Positions 24,438 through 34,170 of a DNA stretch of 38,564 nucleotides are shown piece after piece. The stretch's first letter is position 1. Every line of letters starts with the position of its first letter. The stretch is from a virus, in IMG/VR virus record IMGVR_UViG_3300025889_000329, positions 1 to 38,564 of that record; one strand, given 5' to 3'. The position numbers and the translations under genes are program-made. The notes beneath the pieces are model-generated. The model saw only the letters and a list, made by a program, of their open reading frames with translations, did no database searches and was not told the DNA's origin.

Positions 24438-24728
24438 ATGAATGATAAAGATTTTAAGTTCAAAACAGACGAGGGCTATAAATATAAAGTAGAAAATCAC
24501 GTTCTACCCCCTGTATTTAAAAGAGCCGCTGGCATCTGTTACGATCCAAAATCCGAAAATCCATTAATTATTATAGATCCTACCCTTTCACCTCGTAGAG
24601 AACTCTCCGTTTCCATCGAAGAATTCGCTCATGCCTTCTTTTTTGAAAAAACAGAAAAGAAAGTACGTAAATTTTCCGCTACCCTTGCTAAATATTTATA
24701 CTCTAGAGGTTGGAGAAAGACCCTTTAA
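24438..24728 (+). CDS. Small protein with metallopeptidase-like EExxHA motif, plus strand
   Basis: This 96-aa frame is the only convincing plus-strand gene in the window. Its second half, ELSVSIEEFAHAFFFEKTEK then KKVRKFSATLAKYLYSRGWR, looks like a short phage family in which a helix with a His near two Glu (EEFAHA) precedes a helical tail; in relatives that I recall the helix reads more like HExxHA of zinc peptidases. Here the first His is replaced by Glu, so catalytic activity is doubtful. It starts only 16 nt from the divergent zinc-ribbon ATG, and its last 33 nt overlap the end of the PhoH gene tail to tail. Function unknown. Confidence 0.65.
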   Translation: MNDKDFKFKTDEGYKYKVENHVLPPVFKRAAGICYDPKSENPLIIIDPTLSPRRELSVSIEEFAHAFFFEKTEKKVRKFSATLAKYLYSRGWRKTL

Positions 24729-26224: not shown

Positions 26225-26254
26225 TTGACAATAGTGGGGAAAATGTGGTATTCG
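26225..26254 (+). promoter_or_regulatory. Possible plus-strand promoter facing the GC repeat
   Basis: TTGACA at 26225-26230 is followed after 18 bp by TATTCG with a TGG just before it (extended -10 style, as in the four plus-strand promoters near 29 kb). Transcription would run straight into the GC-rich repeat, where no gene exists. The -10 is poor. Confidence 0.3.
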
Positions 26255-26335
26255 CACACGCCCGCCCGCACCCGCACGGGCGCACCCGCCCACGCCCGCA
26301 GGCGCACCCGCACCCGCAGGCGCACCCGCCCGCCC
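26253..26335. repeat. Very GC-rich tandem repeat of CGCACCC/CCCGCA units
   Basis: About 80 bp built almost only from G and C, with irregular units such as GCACCCGC and CAGGCGCACCCG (the latter repeated exactly 18 bp apart). The minus strand contains GGGCGGGCGGG followed by further GGG runs, so it could form a G-quadruplex. It lies in the gene-free interval 26092-26401 of an otherwise AT-rich genome. Confidence 0.85.
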
Positions 26336-26349
26336 ATATTTAGCGTATT

Positions 26350-26400
26350 TCTGGCGAACTTGGCATTCTTGCCTATTTAGAAAATGTCTGGCATTCTTGG
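26350..26400 (+). repeat. Iteron-like repeat cluster A (CTGGCATTCTTGG)
   Basis: Two to three plus-oriented copies of a ~14-bp sequence: TCTGGCGAACTTGG at 26350-26363, an overlapping TGGCATTCTTG at 26361-26371, and TCTGGCATTCTTGG at 26387-26400, with CTATTTAG between. The same word recurs in clusters at 32.1 and 34.0 kb. Confidence 0.7.
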
Positions 26401-26401
26401 G

Positions 26402-26644
26402 TTACCTTTCCCAAGGTGCAACGTCAAAGCTCAAGTCTTCCTCAAAGCAGTAGTAGTCATGGTGGCGGTTCTTCCAGTCATACATATAGATGTAGTGCTT
26501 ACCTTCCCAATGAGTGGGGACTTCATGGCCGTCACAAGCCATGCAATACATTGCGCCCCTAACAGGGATTGAATATTGCTTGCCATTGTCAAAGGTGTAG
26601 GTGCGAAGGGTGATTCCGTTTGATGTAGTATCAGTGAATGTCAT
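26402..26644 (-). CDS. Hypothetical small protein with Cys/His cluster
   Basis: The 80-aa product begins MTFTDTTSNGITLRTYTFDN and has a Cys/His-rich middle (YCMACDGHEVPTHWEGKHYI) that could bind a metal, and an aromatic, acidic C-terminus (HHDYYCFEEDLSFDVAPWER). I do not recognise the family. The ATG is preceded by no SD; instead a good promoter ends 6 bases before it, so the mRNA should start at or next to the ATG. A CTTGGG/CCCAAG hairpin overlaps the gene's end, without T-tract. Confidence 0.6.
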   Translation of the reverse strand: MTFTDTTSNGITLRTYTFDNGKQYSIPVRGAMYCMACDGHEVPTHWEGKHYIYMYDWKNRHHDYYCFEEDLSFDVAPWER

Positions 26645-26650
26645 GTGATT

Positions 26651-26678
26651 AAATTACCATATCTTGTTCAGGAGTCAA
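26651..26678 (-). promoter_or_regulatory. Sigma-70 promoter, leaderless type, for the 80-aa gene
   Basis: On the minus strand TTGACT (26678-26673), 16 bp, then TAATTT (26656-26651) preceded by TGG (extended -10). Only AATCAC separates the -10 from the ATG at 26644, so transcription should start at about the A of ATG. The TGGTAATTTAATCAC-ATG block is identical to that before the next gene. Confidence 0.75.
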
Positions 26679-26690
26679 TAGGAAAAAAGA

Positions 26691-26720
26691 AAAAAGATTC
26701 CCCTTGATCTCTCAAGGGGA
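26691..26720 (-). terminator. Terminator of the 77-aa gene
   Basis: TCCCCTTGA (26699-26707) pairs with TCAAGGGGA (26712-26720), 4-base loop, followed on the minus strand by a T-rich tract (A run at 26691-26695 and further left). It lies 9 nt past the stop at 26730. Confidence 0.88.
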
Positions 26721-26729
26721 TTTTGTTAG

Positions 26730-26963
26730 TCAGGCTGCGCAGTCCGCCCCGTTCGATGATGGATGCATCCCCAAGGTCTCGCACACCGTCATCCAGATCC
26801 CCCGCTCACAGTAGTCCTGCCTCATGTCGTTGAACTGGTCGATCATGTCCCGAAGCTTGTCGGATCTGTGAGGGTTCTCAAGCTGGTAGGAATACCTGTG
26901 GATCGCATTGGCGAGTGAGTTGAGCTTCTTAGCGGCTTTGGTTATGTCTTTCGTTCCTGTCAT
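26730..26963 (-). CDS. Hypothetical small helical protein
   Basis: The 77-aa product (MTGTKDITKAAKKLNSLANA) is mostly helical, with IHRYSYQLENPHRSDKLRDM and a Cys-containing C-terminus (YCERGIWMTVCETLGM). The gene is clearly richer in G+C than the head genes. It forms a single-gene unit with its own promoter and terminator and no SD. Family not recognised. Confidence 0.6.
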   Translation of the reverse strand: MTGTKDITKAAKKLNSLANAIHRYSYQLENPHRSDKLRDMIDQFNDMRQDYCERGIWMTVCETLGMHPSSNGADCAA

Positions 26964-26969
26964 GTGATT

Positions 26970-26997
26970 AAATTACCATATTCCATTTGAGAGTCAA
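26970..26997 (-). promoter_or_regulatory. Sigma-70 promoter, leaderless type, for the 77-aa gene
   Basis: TTGACT (26997-26992), 16 bp, TGG-TAATTT (26975-26970), then AATCAC and the ATG at 26963. Apart from the spacer it matches the promoter at 26651-26678, a duplicated control element for two unrelated proteins. Confidence 0.78.
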
Positions 26998-27008
26998 TAG
27001 AAAAAGTG

Positions 27009-27037
27009 AAAAAAAAGGGGGGCCGTTTCCGGCCCCC
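27009..27037 (-). terminator. Terminator of the lysozyme-like gene
   Basis: GGGGGCCG (27018-27025) pairs with CGGCCCCC (27030-27037), loop of 4, with eight A to the left that become T8 on the minus-strand RNA. It is 57 nt past the stop at 27094. Confidence 0.9.
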
Positions 27038-27093
27038 TTGCACGTATGATGAACAATGACAATACTACGATAACCAAACGAGGGATGAAAATT

Positions 27094-27468
27094 TTATAAA
27101 TACTTCTTGACTTTCTGCCAATACTTGATAGTGGCTTGCTTCTTGTGTCCCTTCGGACCGCCATTCCAGATCCTTGCCTGTTGCTCTAGCGTCTTGCCTT
27201 TGCCATACCTTTTGATGTAAGCGTTGAAAACTTTCTTGGCGTAATCAAGCTTGTGGCAATCCTGATAAGATCCTCCAATGCTCTTATCATACTCTACAGC
27301 ATCAAGCCAGCATACCTTGTGGATCTGAAGGGGGCCGATAGCTTTGCCATTATCCCCAACAATCCCTGCTCCAGTCCTGCCACTGCTTTCCACCATGTGG
27401 ATTGCTTCGACCAGTTCTCCTGCATTGATTGAACAAGCAGCCAGTAAAAATAAAATGATGTTTTTCAT
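27094..27468 (-). CDS. Secreted SLT-type lysozyme / transglycosylase (possible endolysin)
   Basis: Starting at ATG 27468, the 124-aa product begins MKNIILFLLAACSINAGE: a signal peptide with Lys at 2-3, a hydrophobic core and a likely cleavage after INA. The mature part carries an SLT-like catalytic segment, ELVEAIHMVESSGRTGAGIV then GPLQIHKVCW (catalytic Glu in VESSG), and ends with QQARIWNGGPKGHKKQATIK, the conserved NGG and Tyr region of small lysozymes. It would cut peptidoglycan in the periplasm, either as endolysin exported by the host Sec system or for entry. The longer frame from 27507 would cover the promoter and is rejected. It has its own promoter and terminator. Confidence 0.82.
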   Translation of the reverse strand: MKNIILFLLAACSINAGELVEAIHMVESSGRTGAGIVGDNGKAIGPLQIHKVCWLDAVEYDKSIGGSYQDCHKLDYAKKVFNAYIKRYGKGKTLEQQARIWNGGPKGHKKQATIKYWQKVKKYL

Positions 27469-27478
27469 ATGCACGATT

Positions 27479-27507
27479 AATCTAATGGAAAGAGCGCTTG
27501 TTGTCAA
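27479..27507 (-). promoter_or_regulatory. Sigma-70 promoter, near-leaderless, for the lysozyme-like gene
   Basis: TTGACA (27507-27502), 17 bp, TAGATT (27484-27479), then 10 bases to the ATG at 27468, giving a predicted leader of about 3 nt with no room for an SD. Confidence 0.75.
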
Positions 27508-27517
27508 AGGGAAAAGT

Positions 27518-27544
27518 AAAAAAAAGAGCCCCCCGAAGGGGGCT
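27518..27544 (-). terminator. Terminator of the DUF932-like gene
   Basis: AGCCCCC (27527-27533) with GGGGGCT (27538-27544), loop CGAA, preceded on the plus strand by an A run that gives the U-tract on the minus RNA. It is 11 nt past the stop at 27556. Confidence 0.9.
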
Positions 27545-27555
27545 GTTGATTGTTC

Positions 27556-28551
27556 TTACATAACCAAAGCAAACTCAGCACTTGGCTTGACTTTTAACTC
27601 TGCCAAAGCCCCCCTTGAGAAAGGATTACTGTCTGAAGGGTTAGCAGCAAGGTTCAAGATATCGCAGAACTTCCTTCGAGCCTTGAGGGAAGCATCAGCC
27701 TTGATCTTTTCCCAATCTCTAAAGAGCCGTGTCCCTGCGTTAAACAAACGGTAAAGAGTATCCCCAAGCCCTTGTTCATCCTCTGAAGGTGACACCCAGT
27801 TGACTGCAATGCGGGCTGCTGTAGTGGTCGAAACAACGTTTTTGCTGCAACGGATCACATTACCCAAGATGTTGAAAGCATCCTCATTGGATATCTGAAT
27901 CTCTTTCATCTTATCAAAGTTCCTTAGGTCGTTCTGAGCCTCGACCAATCCTTTCTGAAAAGTATCAGCAAGGAAGGAAAGGTTGATCTTCCCATCCTCC
28001 CCCAGCAAGGAGCGAGAATGTTTACGTTTACTCTTGGCTTGAGCAACGGACACTTCCATGCCATTCAAACAAGCAAGGCGTTTGATTGAAAAAGCCCCCT
28101 CTACTGACCAAGTGCCATCATAAGAGTTTTTCACTGAAAAGACTGGATTGAAGTCTTCCTTATCACTTTTCAAATCGGAAAGGATATCATAGTTCAAAAT
28201 TGCTCTTGAGCCGTGATCAAATACCTTTGCATTCATCTCGAAGTCCATCCCTGCACGTTCAATAGTTTGCGCCACTGCTTCATGCACTTCCCTGTTGGTG
28301 ATCAGGCACTTTGTCTGATAGTCGCCAAGGTAGTCGTCATTGTCTTCCCTAAATACGCCCCATGGTCCAGTGGGTTTTTTGGTTCGGGGGGAAAGCATTC
28401 GGTCTTGGTAGACTCCAAAATCCCAATCCTCAGATTCGGCGCTGCTTTTCTTCAATTGCTCTACTGGCGTCACGCTCTGAAAGCGAGGAGTGCCAGTCGT
28501 GATGACGCTTGTCATGTCGTAGTGTCCAGATGATGTTAATTGAATTGCCAT
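27556..28551 (-). CDS. DUF932-like protein of phages and plasmids
   Basis: The 331-aa product (MAIQLTSSGHYDMTSVITTG) resembles the DUF932 family: the segment FSVKNSYDGTWSVEGAFSIK then RLACLNGMEVSVAQAKSKRK matches the usual NSYDG...GAFRLVCxNGM signature. The C-terminal half is helical and carries AARIAVNWV and YRLFNAGTRLFRDW. The family occurs on plasmids, phages and mobile elements and has no settled biochemical role; it is often near replication or defence genes. Length is usual for the family. The leader (about 45-55 nt) is longer than those of neighbours but shows no SD, only A-rich sequence. Confidence 0.75.
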   Translation of the reverse strand: MAIQLTSSGHYDMTSVITTGTPRFQSVTPVEQLKKSSAESEDWDFGVYQDRMLSPRTKKPTGPWGVFREDNDDYLGDYQTKCLITNREVHEAVAQTIERAGMDFEMNAKVFDHGSRAILNYDILSDLKSDKEDFNPVFSVKNSYDGTWSVEGAFSIKRLACLNGMEVSVAQAKSKRKHSRSLLGEDGKINLSFLADTFQKGLVEAQNDLRNFDKMKEIQISNEDAFNILGNVIRCSKNVVSTTTAARIAVNWVSPSEDEQGLGDTLYRLFNAGTRLFRDWEKIKADASLKARRKFCDILNLAANPSDSNPFSRGALAELKVKPSAEFALVM

Positions 28552-28604
28552 AGTTTTTTGCAGTTAGTTTTTTTAGTTGATAGCCGCTTAATGACTATGG
28601 GATC

Positions 28605-28632
28605 AACCTATCAGAATTCAATTGAATGTCAA
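28605..28632 (-). promoter_or_regulatory. Sigma-70 promoter of the DUF932-like gene
   Basis: TTGACA (28632-28627), 16 bp, TAGGTT (28610-28605). The ATG is at 28551, so the leader is about 47 nt. It diverges from the plus-strand promoter at 28668; their -35 boxes are only 35 bp apart. Confidence 0.65.
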
Positions 28633-28667
28633 CACTTAAAACAAAAAAAGATTTTTAAATTTTCTTG

Positions 28668-28696
28668 TTGACAGCCGCCGTTGAATATGGTAAAAT
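28668..28696 (+). promoter_or_regulatory. Plus-strand promoter P1 with conserved GTGGTGCCCTGATG start
   Basis: TTGACA (28668-28673), exactly 17 bp ending in TGG, TAAAAT (28691-28696). GTGGTGCCCTGATG follows at 28701-28714, where transcription should start. No open frame of useful size follows: ATG at the end of the box gives only MCRS. An A7/T6 inverted tract follows at ~28728-28747, just before P2. Confidence 0.8.
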
Positions 28697-28748
28697 AGTA
28701 GTGGTGCCCTGATGTGCCGTAGCTAAGAAAAAAAGTGAAACTTTTTTG

Positions 28749-28777
28749 TTGACAACGCTTGACGCTTGTGGTAAAAT
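28749..28777 (+). promoter_or_regulatory. Plus-strand promoter P2 with conserved GTGGTGCCCTGATG start
   Basis: TTGACA (28749-28754), 17 bp ending in TGG, TAAAAT (28772-28777), then GTGGTGCCCTGATG at 28782-28795. Its transcript would run ~90 nt to the end of the hairpin module at 28839-28875. The A/T-tract in front (AAAAAAAGTGAAACTTTTTT) can be a UP-like element or a weak terminator of P1. Confidence 0.82.
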
Positions 28778-28838
28778 GTAAGTGGTGCCCTGATGTTGCC
28801 GCCGTCAAAGACTACACTCCCCCCTGCGCTCCCCCTTC

Positions 28839-28875
28839 TTTTATACAAGGTAGCTTGCAGCTACCTTGTATAAAA
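28839..28875. repeat. Hairpin module copy 1 (17-bp stem, TGC loop)
   Basis: The arm TTTTATACAAGGTAGCT (28839-28855) is perfectly complementary to 28859-28875. It is preceded by C-runs (CTCCCCCTTC) and followed by AAGATTATA, as in copies 2 and 3. It ends the region transcribed from P2. No U-tract follows on either strand, so it differs from the window's ordinary terminators. Confidence 0.85.
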
Positions 28876-28929
28876 AAGATTATACTGAAATCAAATTTTC
28901 ATGTCAACACCTAAATCGAAAAAAAGAAG

Positions 28930-29003
28930 AAAAAAAAGAGCGGGGACCGCTCCCCGCTCAAGACATATGAAAAGTATCAGCACAATCAACTGATACGGTT
29001 TGA
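28930..29003 (-). ncRNA. Candidate small RNA with two hairpins and a terminator
   Basis: Between two minus-strand units lies an orphan terminator: GAGCGGGG (28938-28945) with CCCCGCTC (28952-28959), then a long T-tract on the minus strand (A run from 28937 leftwards). Upstream of it is a second hairpin, GTATCAG/CTGATAC with a 9-base loop (about 28974-28996). A TTGACA at 29031-29026 is correctly placed for a start near 29000, but the -10 is poor (CAGGCT). No open frame exceeds two codons. This looks like a ~75-nt sRNA, or the remains of a deleted gene. Confidence 0.5.
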
Positions 29004-29064
29004 GCCTGCCCTTTTTGACTGGATTTGTCAACTAGAAAAAAAGAAATTTTTTGCAATTTTTTTG

Positions 29065-29093
29065 TTGACTGGTAGCGATGCAATTGGTATAAA
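29065..29093 (+). promoter_or_regulatory. Plus-strand promoter P3 with conserved GTGGTGCCCTGAT start
   Basis: TTGACT (29065-29070), 17 bp ending in TGG, TATAAA (29088-29093), followed by GTGGTGCCCTGAT at 29098-29110. It would transcribe into the terminator at 29129 and then antisense to the 96-aa gene. Here no hairpin module follows. Confidence 0.8.
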
Positions 29094-29128
29094 ATAAGTG
29101 GTGCCCTGATTTCCCCAGTAAATAAGGC

Positions 29129-29156
29129 AAAAAAAAGAGGGGGCCAAAGCCCCCTT
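29129..29156 (-). terminator. Terminator of the 96-aa gene
   Basis: GGGGGC (29139-29144) with GCCCCC (29149-29154), loop CAAA, and eight A on its left forming the minus-strand U-tract. It is directly behind the stop at 29159. Read on the plus strand it could also slow transcripts from P3. Confidence 0.9.
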
Positions 29157-29158
29157 GA

Positions 29159-29449
29159 TTAAATCCGCTCAAGGATCATTACGTTCCCGTCGGTGTCAAT
29201 GATGCGGAATCCCAGCCCCTTCAAGCCCTGCTCCATCTCGTTGTAGATGGTTTCAGAAACATATCCCGCCAGCAGAGGAGCAATCTCTTCATCCTCAAAC
29301 ACAATGCGAGTCTCCTCGCTGCCGAAGCCCCACCGTGCGATGTCAGGATATATCTCCTCACCTTCAACAGTCATCTCATACTTCTCGATGAGTCCAGCAA
29401 AGAAGCTTTCAACTTCCTTGATCCGATTTGGTTTGTTCATTGTTGCCAT
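29159..29449 (-). CDS. Hypothetical small acidic protein
   Basis: From ATG 29449 the 96-aa product reads MATMNKPNRIKEVESFFAGL, then an acidic alpha/beta stretch (EYEEI-like: YEMTVEGEEIYPDIARWGFG, VFEDEEIAPLLAGYV) and ends GFRIIDTDGNVMILERI. The pattern suggests a compact cytoplasmic protein with a C-terminal beta-hairpin. Family not recognised. The longer frame to 29626 would include promoters and a poly-Lys/Phe stretch and is rejected. It has its own promoter and terminator and no SD. Confidence 0.6.
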   Translation of the reverse strand: MATMNKPNRIKEVESFFAGLIEKYEMTVEGEEIYPDIARWGFGSEETRIVFEDEEIAPLLAGYVSETIYNEMEQGLKGLGFRIIDTDGNVMILERI

Positions 29450-29459
29450 AACAGTAAAG

Positions 29460-29488
29460 AAATTATCAGATCCTAATTGAGTTGTCAA
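29460..29488 (-). promoter_or_regulatory. Sigma-70 promoter, near-leaderless, for the 96-aa gene
   Basis: TTGACA (29488-29483), 17 bp, TAATTT (29465-29460), then 10 bases to the ATG at 29449. The spacer end GGATCTGA is shared with the promoter at 30379-30407. It diverges from P4. Confidence 0.78.
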
Positions 29489-29532
29489 CAGATTCTGATC
29501 AAAAAAAAGAAAAACTTTTTTGCATTTTTTGC

Positions 29533-29561
29533 TTGACCTACCCCATAGGAATTGGTATAAA
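29533..29561 (+). promoter_or_regulatory. Plus-strand promoter P4 with conserved GTGGACCCCTGATG start
   Basis: TTGACC (29533-29538), 17 bp ending in TGG, TATAAA (29556-29561), followed by GTGGACCCCTGATG at 29566-29579. The predicted RNA of about 86 nt ends with hairpin module copy 2. The ATG in the box opens only MKIK before a stop. Confidence 0.8.
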
Positions 29562-29616
29562 ATAAGTGGACCCCTGATGAAAATTAAGTAGCTCAGACTC
29601 CCCCTTTCTCTCCTCC

Positions 29617-29653
29617 TTTTATACAAGGTAGCTTTCAGCTACCTTGTATAAAA
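29617..29653. repeat. Hairpin module copy 2 (17-bp stem, TTC loop)
   Basis: The arm TTTTATACAAGGTAGCT (29617-29633) is complementary to 29637-29653. Arms are identical to copy 1; the loop differs (TTC against TGC). Flanks are again C-rich on the left (GACTCCCCC) and AAGATTATA on the right. Confidence 0.85.
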
Positions 29654-29708
29654 AAGATTATAACGTCACAATCAAAATCTCGTCAAGCATAATCGAAGAA
29701 AAAAAGAC

Positions 29709-29738
29709 AAAAAAAAGAGGGGGCCGAAGCCCCCCTTG
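29709..29738 (-). terminator. Terminator of the 74-aa zinc-ribbon gene
   Basis: GGGGGC (29719-29724) with GCCCCC (29729-29734), loop CGAA, A8 to the left giving the U-tract on the minus RNA; it abuts the stop at 29740. Confidence 0.9.
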
Positions 29739-29739
29739 T

Positions 29740-29964
29740 TTACTCTTCGAACCTATCCCATGGGCACTTATCGCACCATTCGATAGAGTCTTGGTTTTCG
29801 TCCCTGTACCACCTTTCGCCACATCCTGAGCAATCAAGGATTCTCTGCTTCCTTTCTTTTAAGGTTTTGTTCTCTTCCTTTGAATCGCCACCTCTCCAGT
29901 TCTCTTCGTCGTCTGAGTTGTTGTAGCGGTCCCAGCAGATGTCGTAATAGGCTTGATCATTCAT
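29740..29964 (-). CDS. Small acidic zinc-ribbon protein
   Basis: The 74-aa product (MNDQAYYDICWDRYNNSDDE) is acidic and has a zinc-ribbon-like pair CSGCG ... WCDKC near residues 45-68, separated by ~17 residues. Such small phage proteins often touch host transcription or nucleases, but nothing here fixes the role. It is a single-gene unit without SD, with a promoter 8 bases upstream of the ATG. Confidence 0.6.
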   Translation of the reverse strand: MNDQAYYDICWDRYNNSDDEENWRGGDSKEENKTLKERKQRILDCSGCGERWYRDENQDSIEWCDKCPWDRFEE

Positions 29965-29972
29965 ACGATTAA

Positions 29973-30001
29973 AATCTAATTGAAATATGATATCTTGTCA
30001 A
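29973..30001 (-). promoter_or_regulatory. Sigma-70 promoter, leaderless type, for the 74-aa gene
   Basis: TTGACA (30001-29996), 17 bp, TAGATT (29978-29973), 8 bases to the ATG at 29964; predicted leader about 1 nt. Confidence 0.78.
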
Positions 30002-30012
30002 CGGTTAATTGC

Positions 30013-30042
30013 AAAAAAAAGAGGGGGGCCGAAGCCCCCCTT
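30013..30042 (-). terminator. Terminator of the 107-aa gene
   Basis: GGGGGGC (30023-30029) with GCCCCCC (30034-30040), loop CGAA, A8 at 30013-30020 forming the U-tract; 6 nt past the stop at 30046. Confidence 0.9.
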
Positions 30043-30045
30043 GCC

Positions 30046-30369
30046 TTACCTCAAGAGAGGTTCCCAATTGAACGTCTCAGGGATAGAGTCTAAGATCTGC
30101 CGCCAGTAGCGGGGCATTTTCTTGAACAACAGCCCCATTTGCTTAGTGCTGAGAGTCCGGCCCCGCTCTACCTGCTGAGCAAAGCTTGAAAGGATCTCAG
30201 CATCCATTCCACTGAATCCCACACCATTCTGAGCCATGGTGAATCCTGCCCCTTGCTCGTCTGCGGTCTGGAAGCCGTAGACGACGGTTAACGCCCTGAG
30301 TGCCCACTTGGGATTGGTTCCGAGTTGGTTTTTGAGGGCGGCTTGTTTTGCTTTCTTTGTGACCTTCAT
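30046..30369 (-). CDS. Conserved small phage protein of unknown function
   Basis: The 107-aa product (MKVTKKAKQAALKNQLGTNP) contains KWALRALTVVYGFQTADEQ, then NGVGFSGMDAEILSSFAQQV and STKQMGLLFKKMPRYWRQIL. This arrangement (RALxxxYxxQTxxEQ ... NGxGFxGxDAxILSSFA ... KQxxxLxxxMxxYW) recurs in small proteins of phages and plasmids as far as I recall; the function is unknown. It has a promoter 9 bases upstream of ATG and no SD. Confidence 0.65.
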   Translation of the reverse strand: MKVTKKAKQAALKNQLGTNPKWALRALTVVYGFQTADEQGAGFTMAQNGVGFSGMDAEILSSFAQQVERGRTLSTKQMGLLFKKMPRYWRQILDSIPETFNWEPLLR

Positions 30370-30378
30370 GTTGGAAAT

Positions 30379-30407
30379 AAATTATCAGATCCCAATTAGA
30401 TTGTCAA
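30379..30407 (-). promoter_or_regulatory. Sigma-70 promoter, near-leaderless, for the 107-aa gene
   Basis: TTGACA (30407-30402), 17 bp ending GGATCTGA, TAATTT (30384-30379), 9 bases to the ATG at 30369. Confidence 0.78.
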
Positions 30408-30430
30408 CCGTTAAAATGAAAAAAAAGAAG

Positions 30431-30456
30431 AAAAAAAAGAGGGGCCGAAGCCCCTT
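30431..30456 (-). terminator. Terminator of the 49-aa/62-aa operon
   Basis: GGGGC (30441-30445) with GCCCC (30450-30454), loop CGAA, A8 on the left for the U-tract. It directly follows the stop at 30459. Confidence 0.85.
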
Positions 30457-30458
30457 GT

Positions 30459-30608
30459 TTAATCATCAAAGCATTGATCATCTTTCCATGAGTCATAGTC
30501 CCTGTCTACCTTCTCCCAGTAGGCCAGTTCCCTTTCTTCCATGCTCTTGTCTTCCTCTCCAATGAAAGCTCTATCCCTGTCAAATCCTCCGAATGTCCTG
30601 TCAATCAT
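30459..30608 (-). CDS. Tiny acidic protein, 49 aa
   Basis: The frame from ATG 30608 encodes MIDRTFGGFDRDRAFIGEED followed by a charged helical half ending DSWKDDQCFDD. It is real by context: an SD (GGAGAG, 3 nt before the ATG), a gap of 12 nt from the upstream 62-aa gene, and a terminator right after the stop. It is the second gene of a two-gene unit and, unlike the leaderless genes, has an SD because it is translated internally. Function unknown. Confidence 0.65.
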   Translation of the reverse strand: MIDRTFGGFDRDRAFIGEEDKSMEERELAYWEKVDRDYDSWKDDQCFDD

Positions 30609-30620
30609 ATCTCTCCTTTC

Positions 30621-30809
30621 TTAGTATCCAAGCCAATCAAGCAAGTCTTGAACGGTCCATTCTGAAGCATCATGCCATTCCGAACACCAGTCTTTTGCGC
30701 CCTTGGGCTGGAAAACATCCTCAACAAATAGCTGAGTCCTTTGCCTGTTTGTAAAGAACCTTTGGTCATGCTGCTTTAAGATCCTTACCAGTTTGTCAAT
30801 TCCTGTCAT
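30621..30809 (-). CDS. Hypothetical small protein, 62 aa
   Basis: The product begins MTGIDKLVRILKQHDQRFFT and ends HDASEWTVQDLLDWLGY, with Trp- and acid-rich C-terminal helix. Family not recognised. The promoter lies 8 bases before the ATG, so the first gene of this unit is leaderless while the following 49-aa gene uses an SD. Confidence 0.6.
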   Translation of the reverse strand: MTGIDKLVRILKQHDQRFFTNRQRTQLFVEDVFQPKGAKDWCSEWHDASEWTVQDLLDWLGY

Positions 30810-30817
30810 ACGGTTCT

Positions 30818-30845
30818 AATCTACTGGAAAAAAAGAAAATGTCAA
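30818..30845 (-). promoter_or_regulatory. Sigma-70 promoter, leaderless type, for the 62-aa gene
   Basis: TTGACA (30845-30840), 16 bp, TAGATT (30823-30818), 8 bases to ATG at 30809. Confidence 0.75.
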
Positions 30846-30880
30846 ATGGAAAATTATCAGAAAATAATTGAAAAAAGATC

Positions 30881-31039
30881 TTGCAATCAAAGGATCAAAA
30901 TGCTAAATTGTTATCAGTTAAAGGGAAGGTGGCGGCGATACCGATAGCCAGTGAGGAGATCAAACTCCAAGAGTAGGGGACCGGACCCTGCCCTAATTCA
31001 TAAATAGTAAAAGACTCTCATTTCATTTTAGCATTTTTT
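30881..31039 (+). ncRNA. Candidate structured RNA region with plus-strand promoter
   Basis: In the gene-free stretch 30846-31076, TTGCAA (30881-30886), 17 bp and TAAATT (30904-30909) could start a plus-strand RNA. AAAATGCTAAA (30897-30907) is complementary to TTTAGCATTTT (31027-31037), which is followed by more T, and a local GGAG/CTCC hairpin (30955-30968) and G/C-rich words (GGTGGCGGCG, GGGGACCGGACCC) lie between. No open frame of note crosses it. The left arm overlaps the -10, so start and closing stem cannot both be right. Confidence 0.3.
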
Positions 31040-31076
31040 CCCCTACCTTGTAAAGCTTTTTCTTCAAAAAAAAGTA

Positions 31077-31104
31077 CAAAAAAAAGACTCCCTAAAGGGA
31101 GTCT
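31077..31104 (-). terminator. Terminator of the GP88-like gene
   Basis: GACTCCC (31087-31093) with GGGAGTC (31098-31104), loop TAAA, A run to its left for the U-tract; 15 nt past the stop at 31120. Confidence 0.9.
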
Positions 31105-31119
31105 GTGCAAGCTTAATTT

Positions 31120-31827
31120 CTATACATTGTCAACAACAAATCCAGACAAATCTTTAATTGCTTTACCTTTAGCCTTGAGCGCAACAATGCAATTTTTAGG
31201 ATCTAAAAATCTCAAATCATGCTCGTCTCCATTGACTACTTTATACTTGCGACCCTTGAAAGTATACGTTCCACGTTTAATGACTTTCTCATGGTCCTTG
31301 AATACCATTGCCACATTGCCACCCTTGCGGAGTATGATATCGCATAGTTCATCATTGTTTTCTGATCTAGAAAATGTTAAGTGATAGTTTGCTGGCATTT
31401 TACCGTCTAAAAATGAGACCATTCTTTTAGCTCGTTTTGTGTAATCGTAAAATTGAGTTTCCTTTTCAGTTTGGAAAATGTTCTCATTCTCCCATGCGAT
31501 ATCACTTGTTCCATTTAAACGCACAACAAACCGATTGAATTTCTTCTTACCCTTCCTAATTTCATCCTTCAATTGTGCAATGAATTCTTGCTTGTCAGTA
31601 AAGAATCTTTGCGTTTTCTTGATCCTTGCTTGCTTCACGTTATCCATGCTTCCACGGCCAGCAGTAAAAAGACAAGCTTGTCTACATCCCTTAGAAGCAT
31701 TGGGACAAGTGTTTGCAATCCCTGATTCATCGCTTGGCGCAAGGTATACAATGCCAGTTGTGATGCCCAATTTTTGACCTTTAATGGTCTTTGCGTTTGT
31801 ATCGATTCCAAGTATTGTCTGTTTCAT
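31120..31827 (-). CDS. GP88-like phage protein with Cys cluster
   Basis: From ATG 31827 the 235-aa product (MKQTILGIDTNAKTIKGQKL) shows the arrangement of the phage GP88 family: GIVYLAPSDESG, then a Cys cluster ANTCPNASKGCRQACLFTAG (Cys-x6-Cys-x3-Cys), then NVKQARIKKTQRFFTDKQEF, VVRLNGTSDIAWEN and NYHLTFSRSENN. The Cys spacing is not the CxxxCxxC of radical SAM enzymes, although a barrel fold with metal binding is possible. Function is unknown. The longer frame to 31896 would begin inside the promoter and is rejected. It is transcribed alone, with a leader of about 3-4 nt. Confidence 0.7.
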   Translation of the reverse strand: MKQTILGIDTNAKTIKGQKLGITTGIVYLAPSDESGIANTCPNASKGCRQACLFTAGRGSMDNVKQARIKKTQRFFTDKQEFIAQLKDEIRKGKKKFNRFVVRLNGTSDIAWENENIFQTEKETQFYDYTKRAKRMVSFLDGKMPANYHLTFSRSENNDELCDIILRKGGNVAMVFKDHEKVIKRGTYTFKGRKYKVVNGDEHDLRFLDPKNCIVALKAKGKAIKDLSGFVVDNV

Positions 31828-31837
31828 ATGCACAAAC

Positions 31838-31865
31838 AAAATACCACATGACCAAAGGGAGTCAA
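31838..31865 (-). promoter_or_regulatory. Sigma-70 promoter, near-leaderless, for the GP88-like gene
   Basis: TTGACT (31865-31860), 16 bp ending in TGG, TATTTT (31843-31838), then 10 bases ending GTGCAT and the ATG. The GCATATG start context is shared with the genes at 27468, 32466, 32915 and 33841. Confidence 0.75.
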
Positions 31866-31929
31866 TTTTTTTTTCAATTAAATTCTCATAGCACAAAAAA
31901 GAAAGCTACACCTCCCCGAACGGCTTCCC

Positions 31930-31968
31930 TTCTTATACAAGATAACCGAAGGTTATCTTGTATAAGAA
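31930..31968. repeat. Hairpin module copy 3 (18-bp stem, GAA loop, covarying)
   Basis: The arm 31930-31947 (TTCTTATACAAGATAACC) is perfectly complementary to 31951-31968. Compared with copies 1 and 2 the outer TATACAAG is kept, while GGTAGCT has become GATAACC and the opposite arm has changed to match. Flanks are again CTCCCC/CTTCCC on the left and AAGATTATA on the right. No clear plus-strand promoter precedes this copy. Confidence 0.85.
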
Positions 31969-32080
31969 AGATTATACCAATGCACCAATCAAGTCGTCAA
32001 GCAAATTCGTGAACTTTTTTTATCAAATTTGTGCTGCCAGAATTCAATTAAAATCTTATAGTTTATATACTCGCCAATAT

Positions 32081-32102: not shown

Positions 32103-32240
32103 TTTAGTTATTTAGCAGTAATCTGGCATTCTTGGTTATTTAGGTAATATCTGGCATTCTTGAAAGGTTATTTAAGAGCCATCCGACAACCTTGGAGGTT
32201 ATTTAGTTATTTAGGGGGTATCCGGCAACCTTGGAAGGTT
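32103..32240 (+). repeat. Iteron-like repeat cluster B, four tandem units
   Basis: Four plus-oriented units begin at 32122 (TCTGGCATTCTTGG), 32150 (TCTGGCATTCTTG), 32182 (TCCGACAACCTTGG) and 32221 (TCCGGCAACCTTGG); each is followed by GGTTATTTAG or a close variant. Spacing is 28, 32 and 39 bp. The consensus TCYGGCAnYCTTGG-n-GGTTATTTAG is also seen in clusters A (26.35 kb) and C (34.0 kb). There is no coding frame here. Confidence 0.75.
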
Positions 32241-34004: not shown

Positions 34005-34170
34005 ATACTGCAAACTAGTTATTTACAGAAAATACCACAAACTTGGTTATTTATGATAAATCGGACATTCTGCTGCGAATTCTTATTTAAATTATTTCGA
34101 TTAAACTTGACATTCTTGGCCCTTTATTGTATTTAGGCCCACTCTGGCAAACTATAATTTATTTAGAATG
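34005..34170 (+). repeat. Iteron-like repeat cluster C, degenerate units
   Basis: Plus-oriented units: CTGCAAACTAG at 34009, CCACAAACTTGG near 34035, CGGACATTCTG near 34062, CTTGACATTCTTGG at 34106 and CTCTGGCAAACT at 34142, most followed by TTATTTA. They are less alike than in cluster B but clearly the same word order. They fill the start of the gene-free interval 33900-34511. Confidence 0.55.
34107..34135 (+). promoter_or_regulatory. Possible plus-strand promoter overlapping an iteron
   Basis: TTGACA (34107-34112), 17 bp, TATTTA (34130-34135). The -35 is part of the repeat CTTGACATTCTTGG, so a protein binding the repeats could control it. The only frame downstream is the small hydrophobic one at 34232. 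Confidence 0.4.

Follow-up and report, generated by a model that had tools for sequence, protein, structure and literature searches.

The window analysed here is a complete virus record of 38,564 bases. Its terminase shares 82-84% identity with the terminases of many IMG/VR contigs, and because one of these is 174,551 bases long, the record is, judging by this match, a piece of a larger phage genome. Its gene order is that of relatives through the structural genes as far as PhoH, and nearly all of its genes are on the minus strand. Between about 26.4 and 31.9 kb lies an accessory region of short genes that appear to be mostly transcribed separately: several begin 6-10 nt past a TTGAC-17-TAGATT/TAATTT promoter, with a short leader or none, and several have a GC-rich hairpin with a T run at the 3' end. 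Accessory genes at 26402-31896 are leaderless or nearly so, with starts 6-10 nt past the -10 element, unlike the structural genes of the same phage, which often have Shine-Dalgarno sequences; similar gene starts are seen in two relatives (G039 and G040).

Other repeated elements occur in and around this region. Three gaps (26337-26400, 32104-32240 and 34018-34119) hold TATTTAG-N7-CTGGCATTCTTGG repeats (families D4-D7), each ending in CTAAATA on the minus strand and resembling a late-promoter element. At 26225-26340, a plus-strand T-rich tract is followed by TTGACA, a weak -10 and a GC-rich repeat (D3); this tract resembles a gene-less promoter found upstream of PhoH in relatives, in the opposite orientation.

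Table 1. Predicted features of the accessory region and its surroundings (positions in the window).
Feature	Position	Strand	Remarks
Conserved gene	24438-24728	+	
DUF932-family gene	27556-28551	-	P1 and P2 lie antisense to its distal leader
Proximal promoter-like site TTGACATTCAATTGAATTCTGATAGG, DUF932-family gene	28601-28632	-	From sequence
P1	28643-28713	+	A/T-tract UP-like; -35 TTGACA 28668-28673; -10 TAAAAT 28691-28696, TGG before; box GTGGTGCCCTGAT 28701-28713
P2	28724-28794	+	UP-like; -35 TTGACA 28749-28754; -10 TAAAAT 28772-28777; box GTGGTGCCCTGAT 28782-28794
17-bp hairpin and purine-rich tract (repeat D9)	28834-28884	-	5' end of minus leader
Consensus promoter TTGACA-17-TATAAT, 12/12	28879-28907	-	Converges on P1 and P2; distal for DUF932-family gene
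P3	29040-29110	+	UP-like; -35 TTGACT 29065-29070; -10 TATAAA 29088-29093; box GTGGTGCCCTGAT 29098-29110
Small putative gene, function unassigned	29159-29449	-	P3 on 3' side, P4 on 5' side
Proximal near-leaderless promoter of gene 29159-29449, TTGACA-17-TAATTT	29460-29488	-	ATG 10 nt on
P4	29508-29578	+	UP-like; -35 TTGACC 29533-29538; -10 TATAAA 29556-29561; variant box GTGGACCCCTGAT 29566-29578
17-bp hairpin and AGGAGG-type purine tract (D9), 96% identity to first copy	29612-29662	-	5' end of minus leader
Promoter TTGACG-18-TATAAT	29657-29686	-	Converges on P4; distal for gene 29159-29449
Third hairpin promoter TTGACG-18-TATAAT, variant hairpin	31926-32000	-	Upstream of GP88-family gene; no plus box opposite

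Four probable plus-strand promoters and the leaders and gene opposite them

Four plus-strand units in this region, P1-P4, share a single layout: TTGAC, a 17-bp spacer ending in TGG, TAAAAT or TATAAA, four bases, and a box of the form GTGG(TG/AC)CCCTGAT. The initial annotation had placed them at 28668, 28749, 29065 and 29533, where all are present; it did not mention the UP-like A/T tracts on their 5' sides, or the convergent minus-strand promoters with 5' hairpins. At the sequence level they carry the elements of a sigma70-type promoter (-35 TTGACA, 16-18 bp, -10 TATAAT, often with TGn and UP), and on a simple promoter score they take the top four places in the window (15, 15, 14 and 14); the related records scanned have about a dozen sites scoring at least 13 over some 700 kb. 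It is very probable from these motifs that P1-P4 are real promoters, and likely that they are active. The exact sequence GTGGNNCCCTGAT occurs four times in the window, on the plus strand in every case and each time behind one of P1-P4; four more sites have up to two mismatches, which is the chance level for mismatched sites.

Several early statements about the transcripts need refinement. The box had been assigned to +1: it is in place there, but a start about 7 nt past the -10 falls on its third base rather than its first, giving predicted RNA 5' ends of GGUGCCC or GGACCCC, inside the box. That the units point against all genes is true locally and not window-wide, given the conserved plus-strand gene. 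The annotation was right that no gene lies behind them, yet every one of the RNAs would run across a leader or gene of the minus strand. It was also right that the downstream frames are tiny and not conserved (past a possible ATG come just MCRS and a stop, a 26-codon frame, none, and MKIK and a stop), and the RNAs are likely to be untranslated. A minus-strand coding role for the boxes was considered and rejected, as the frames at P3 and P4 lack a usable start or are interrupted by stops; P1 and P2, 81 bp apart, fall in one TTG-initiated minus-strand frame of about 58 codons.

The suggestion of a defined small-RNA gene fared less well. No intrinsic terminator was found on the plus strand behind P1, P2 or P3, P4 has one weak candidate (29719-29734), and the hairpins near P2 and P4 are better assigned to the minus-strand promoters. 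No fold common to the four RNAs was found past the box. Rfam 15 gave no match at or above gathering score in the window, this region yielding sub-threshold matches alone, and no tRNA remnants were found, though TAGCTCAG follows P4.

On the opposite strand, all three copies of the D9 repeat (the third at 31926-31976) lie immediately behind a strong minus-strand promoter (28907, 29686 and 32000). Since this is so, and since the third copy has no plus-strand promoter or box, we read the D9 hairpins as 5' leaders of minus-strand transcripts, in which a purine-rich tract comes after a 17-bp stem-loop. Leaders of this construction resemble known 5' mRNA stabilisers. Folding of the minus-strand stretch 28745-28878 gives a z of -4.1. 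One other assignment was discarded, that of plus-strand small RNAs ending at a D9 hairpin: the third copy comes with a minus promoter but lacks a plus box, and the hairpin has its A-rich flank on the side opposite to that required of a plus-strand terminator.

The gene downstream of each of these three leader promoters also has a proximal promoter of its own, and as the accessory genes have their own near-leaderless promoters, the distal leader would be a separate, regulable transcript. On the plus strand, P1 and P2 occupy the interval separating the DUF932-family gene from its 28907 promoter, and P4 that separating gene 29159 from the 29686 promoter, so that each of the three faces a leader promoter and lies a short way upstream of the proximal promoter of the gene. 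P3 points into gene 29159-29449 from its 3' side; no relatives of this gene were found. The P1, P2 and P4 transcripts would be complementary to leaders, and that of P3 to the end of gene 29159. Between P2 and P3, at 28938-29029, a minus-strand TTGACA, a CATATG TCT TGA start-stop (about 28959-28970) and a terminator resemble an emptied gene cassette.

Conservation of the units and search for relatives

The pattern TTGAC-N15..17-TGGTANAA has five sites in the window, four on the plus strand and one on the minus strand (at 32000); in 60 Markov simulations of the window it occurred once in a single simulation and not at all in the other 59. Mean pairwise identity among P1-P4 is 1.00 for TTGAC, 0.85 for TGGTANAA and 0.92 for the box, 0.65 in the 25 bp of A/T tracts upstream, 0.32 in the spacer and 0.24-0.28 past the box; further upstream it is also within 24-34%, as for random sequence. 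With the spacer and downstream DNA at random identity and the promoter elements and box at 85-100%, the units are, on this comparison, not recent copies. The pattern is what would be expected of old copies under selection on the promoter and first transcribed bases at constant spacing. Motif conservation amid unrelated surroundings supports the earlier proposal of promoters with a common start sequence: the units look like real promoters, and that sequence appears to be under constraint. The observation of four units is sound and beyond chance. A reading of P1-P4 as chance or vestigial promoters of lost genes, retained merely through recent duplication, could draw on the CATATG TCT TGA remnant, which suggests that a gene cassette was deleted nearby; given that flanks and spacer have diverged to random and the motifs have not, and that the chance expectation is close to zero, we consider it decidedly improbable.

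The search of related phages proposed at the outset was run and returned no copy. The full unit was absent from the viral contigs, 48 related-phage records and phage DNA (megablast) scanned, near-identical records perhaps lying outside these scans, and from bacterial and archaeal genomes save for one chance match inside a Moorena gene. A hairpin pattern scan also found none. In the region upstream of the DUF932-family gene, G025 alone among the relatives checked has a strong opposing promoter, without the box.

A looser scan for promoter plus GTGG gave 84 stretches, the closest being in the phage records L150 and L196, each with one promoter matching the consensus as far as AGTGGTGCC. These were rejected as relatives of the unit: the copy is single, and a dyad covering the -10 accounts for the match. 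In both (L150 3547-3640, L196 11030-11124) the dyad GCACCACTT/AAGTGGTGC extends across the -10 of a strong promoter. Beyond this promoter lie about 60 nt of non-coding sequence and an AT-rich hairpin resembling a terminator, making it another gene-less phage promoter. Seven related contigs (L007, L008, L012, L017, L048, L057 and L064) have a very strong conserved promoter with a T-rich tract and TTGAC-17-TGGTACAAT, about 1.1 kb upstream of PhoH. GC-rich sequence follows at once, with a T run in several and no gene for about 300 nt; the product is possibly a very short terminated RNA.

Candidate functions

The best fit to the layout is that P1-P4 make antisense RNAs and interfere with opposing transcription, the box being their common RNA start; we prefer this tentatively, at somewhat below an even chance. 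P1-P4 would be very strong promoters of the UP/-35/TGn/-10 type, read by the main RNA polymerase of the host, and each would start a short untranslated RNA with the common 11-13 nt box at its 5' end. Like P22 sar or lambda OOP, they would lower the expression of neighbouring genes by convergent transcription and leader pairing, with the main effect plausibly on the opposing leader transcripts. Because the opposing leaders hold the exact complement of the box, the P1-P3 RNAs could pair with one another's leaders. Predicted duplex energies of the 14-nt starts are -23 to -29.5 kcal/mol for P1-P3 on the P1-P3 anti-boxes and weaker for pairings of P4 with P1-P3 (-14.6 to -17.9 kcal/mol); outside the four anti-boxes, no minus-strand site in the window does better than -20.6 kcal/mol. 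The common box would let four RNAs act on, or be controlled via, one recognition sequence. Promoter activity, RNA length, antisense effect and box role are what we infer here; motifs, constraint and layout are read from the DNA. Several points go against the antisense model: with no plus-strand intrinsic terminator directly behind the units, no defined RNA end is predicted; P3 has no hairpin promoter opposite; and the GP88-family gene has a hairpin promoter but no plus unit, so that the pairing of the two is not obligatory. Antisense pairing by itself needs no common box, and box conservation would be accounted for equally well by an operator in the DNA or by an RNA handle for a protein.

Other possibilities give the box itself the leading part. 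A small-RNA interpretation, that of the initial annotation, is possible: the transcripts could be trans-acting, with the 5' box a seed or protein-binding handle for host or phage RNA or protein. An 11-13 nt 5' sequence that is conserved when everything past it is not would suit such RNAs, and phage decoy RNAs exist (Racr, PMC10651486); against this, there is no Rfam match at gathering score, no terminator and no common fold past the box, and the box's sole strong complements within the window are its own anti-boxes, so that we regard it as unlikely. Similarly doubtful is an RNA family defined by a common start and not a common body, in which four different short RNAs would carry a GGNNCCCUGAU 5' end serving as a trans seed or handle, or as a leaderless GUG-NNN-CCC-UGA minigene. 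The minigene alone, tying up ribosomes or proline tRNA from a position at or near the RNA 5' end, we consider highly improbable. Its products would be fMet-Val-Pro or fMet-Asp-Pro, then a stop, and the box does read GTG NNN CCC TGA in all four units, the P4 change being in codon 2, in a region where accessory genes are leaderless or nearly so; a 5'-end GUG is enough for leaderless initiation in mycobacteria (PMC4633059). But the GTG is only 5 nt past the -10, where the usual start (about 7 nt) would drop its first bases, and four copies cannot tell codon constraint from base constraint.

Alternatively, the box may act as DNA. P1-P4 could be promoter-operator units in which an asymmetric site for a phage repressor covers +1 and the transcripts are secondary, as the constant place and orientation of an asymmetric 13-mer in four promoters might suggest; L5-type repressors bind asymmetric 13-mers in an orientation following transcription (PMC9283540). 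Unlike stoperators, though, the box never stands without a promoter in the window; the minus-strand promoters lack it, and there was no repressor-family match among the proteins scanned, which were part of the window's proteins from an incomplete genome. This we judge rather unlikely. A role in replication or transcription activation would have these strong promoters furnish RNA primers or melt the duplex, as at T7 or T4 origins. Strong promoters are clustered here in A/T-rich gaps without a gene; in related phages, too, a strong promoter with no gene behind it and a GC-rich start lies about 1.1 kb ahead of PhoH. That promoter is located elsewhere and has a different start sequence, however, and no GC-skew switch was found at 28-30 kb, which makes such a role improbable.

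Units of the P1-P4 type are missed altogether by gene prediction. If they are active, the phage's strongest promoters in the window go to non-coding, gene-opposing transcription with a common RNA start, which would be an unusual means of coordinating several antisense RNAs. The layout, in which near-leaderless one-gene cassettes have hairpin-led second promoters, predicts two-promoter control.

Comparison with known systems

The individual elements are of known kinds; a start box common to four gene-opposing promoters appears to be new and was in none of the relatives scanned. Under the antisense reading, the units would be like P22 sar and lambda OOP in placing a strong promoter opposite the phage mRNA strand, with a predicted non-coding product. 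We know of no start sequence shared by the P22 antisense RNAs, unlike the four units here with their one common box. The sar-type 3' end is made by an intrinsic terminator; none was found near P1-P3, and a weak one for P4. Four antisense small RNAs have been reported in P22 (PMC13397905).

The asymmetric 13-mer, its orientation fixed to transcription, is like the operators and stoperators of L5-type mycobacteriophages (PMC9283540). L5-type stoperators lie in many intergenic gaps, including promoter-less ones; the four exact sites in the window are all behind promoters of one class, the box being confined to their +1. Racr and other solitary repeat units are short phage non-coding RNAs directly behind a strong promoter (PMC10651486), and the RNA starts at P1-P4 would have the same position. 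A CRISPR mimic of this kind was rejected: the common box is not a CRISPR repeat, and in a comparison with six repeat types only P1 against type I-F stood out. The P1 tail, TGCCGT------AGCTAAGAAA, resembles a type I-F repeat with six bases missing, at a score equalled or beaten by roughly a dozen of the 46,564 windows scanned and so attributable to chance; P2-P4 have no such resemblance.

Early promoters of T4 join UP, -35, TGn and -10 elements in a consensus extending beyond the standard boxes and compete strongly for the host polymerase (PMC2988021). P1-P4 combine the same four elements; unlike the T4 promoters, which serve early genes, they are gene-less and point against the local genes.
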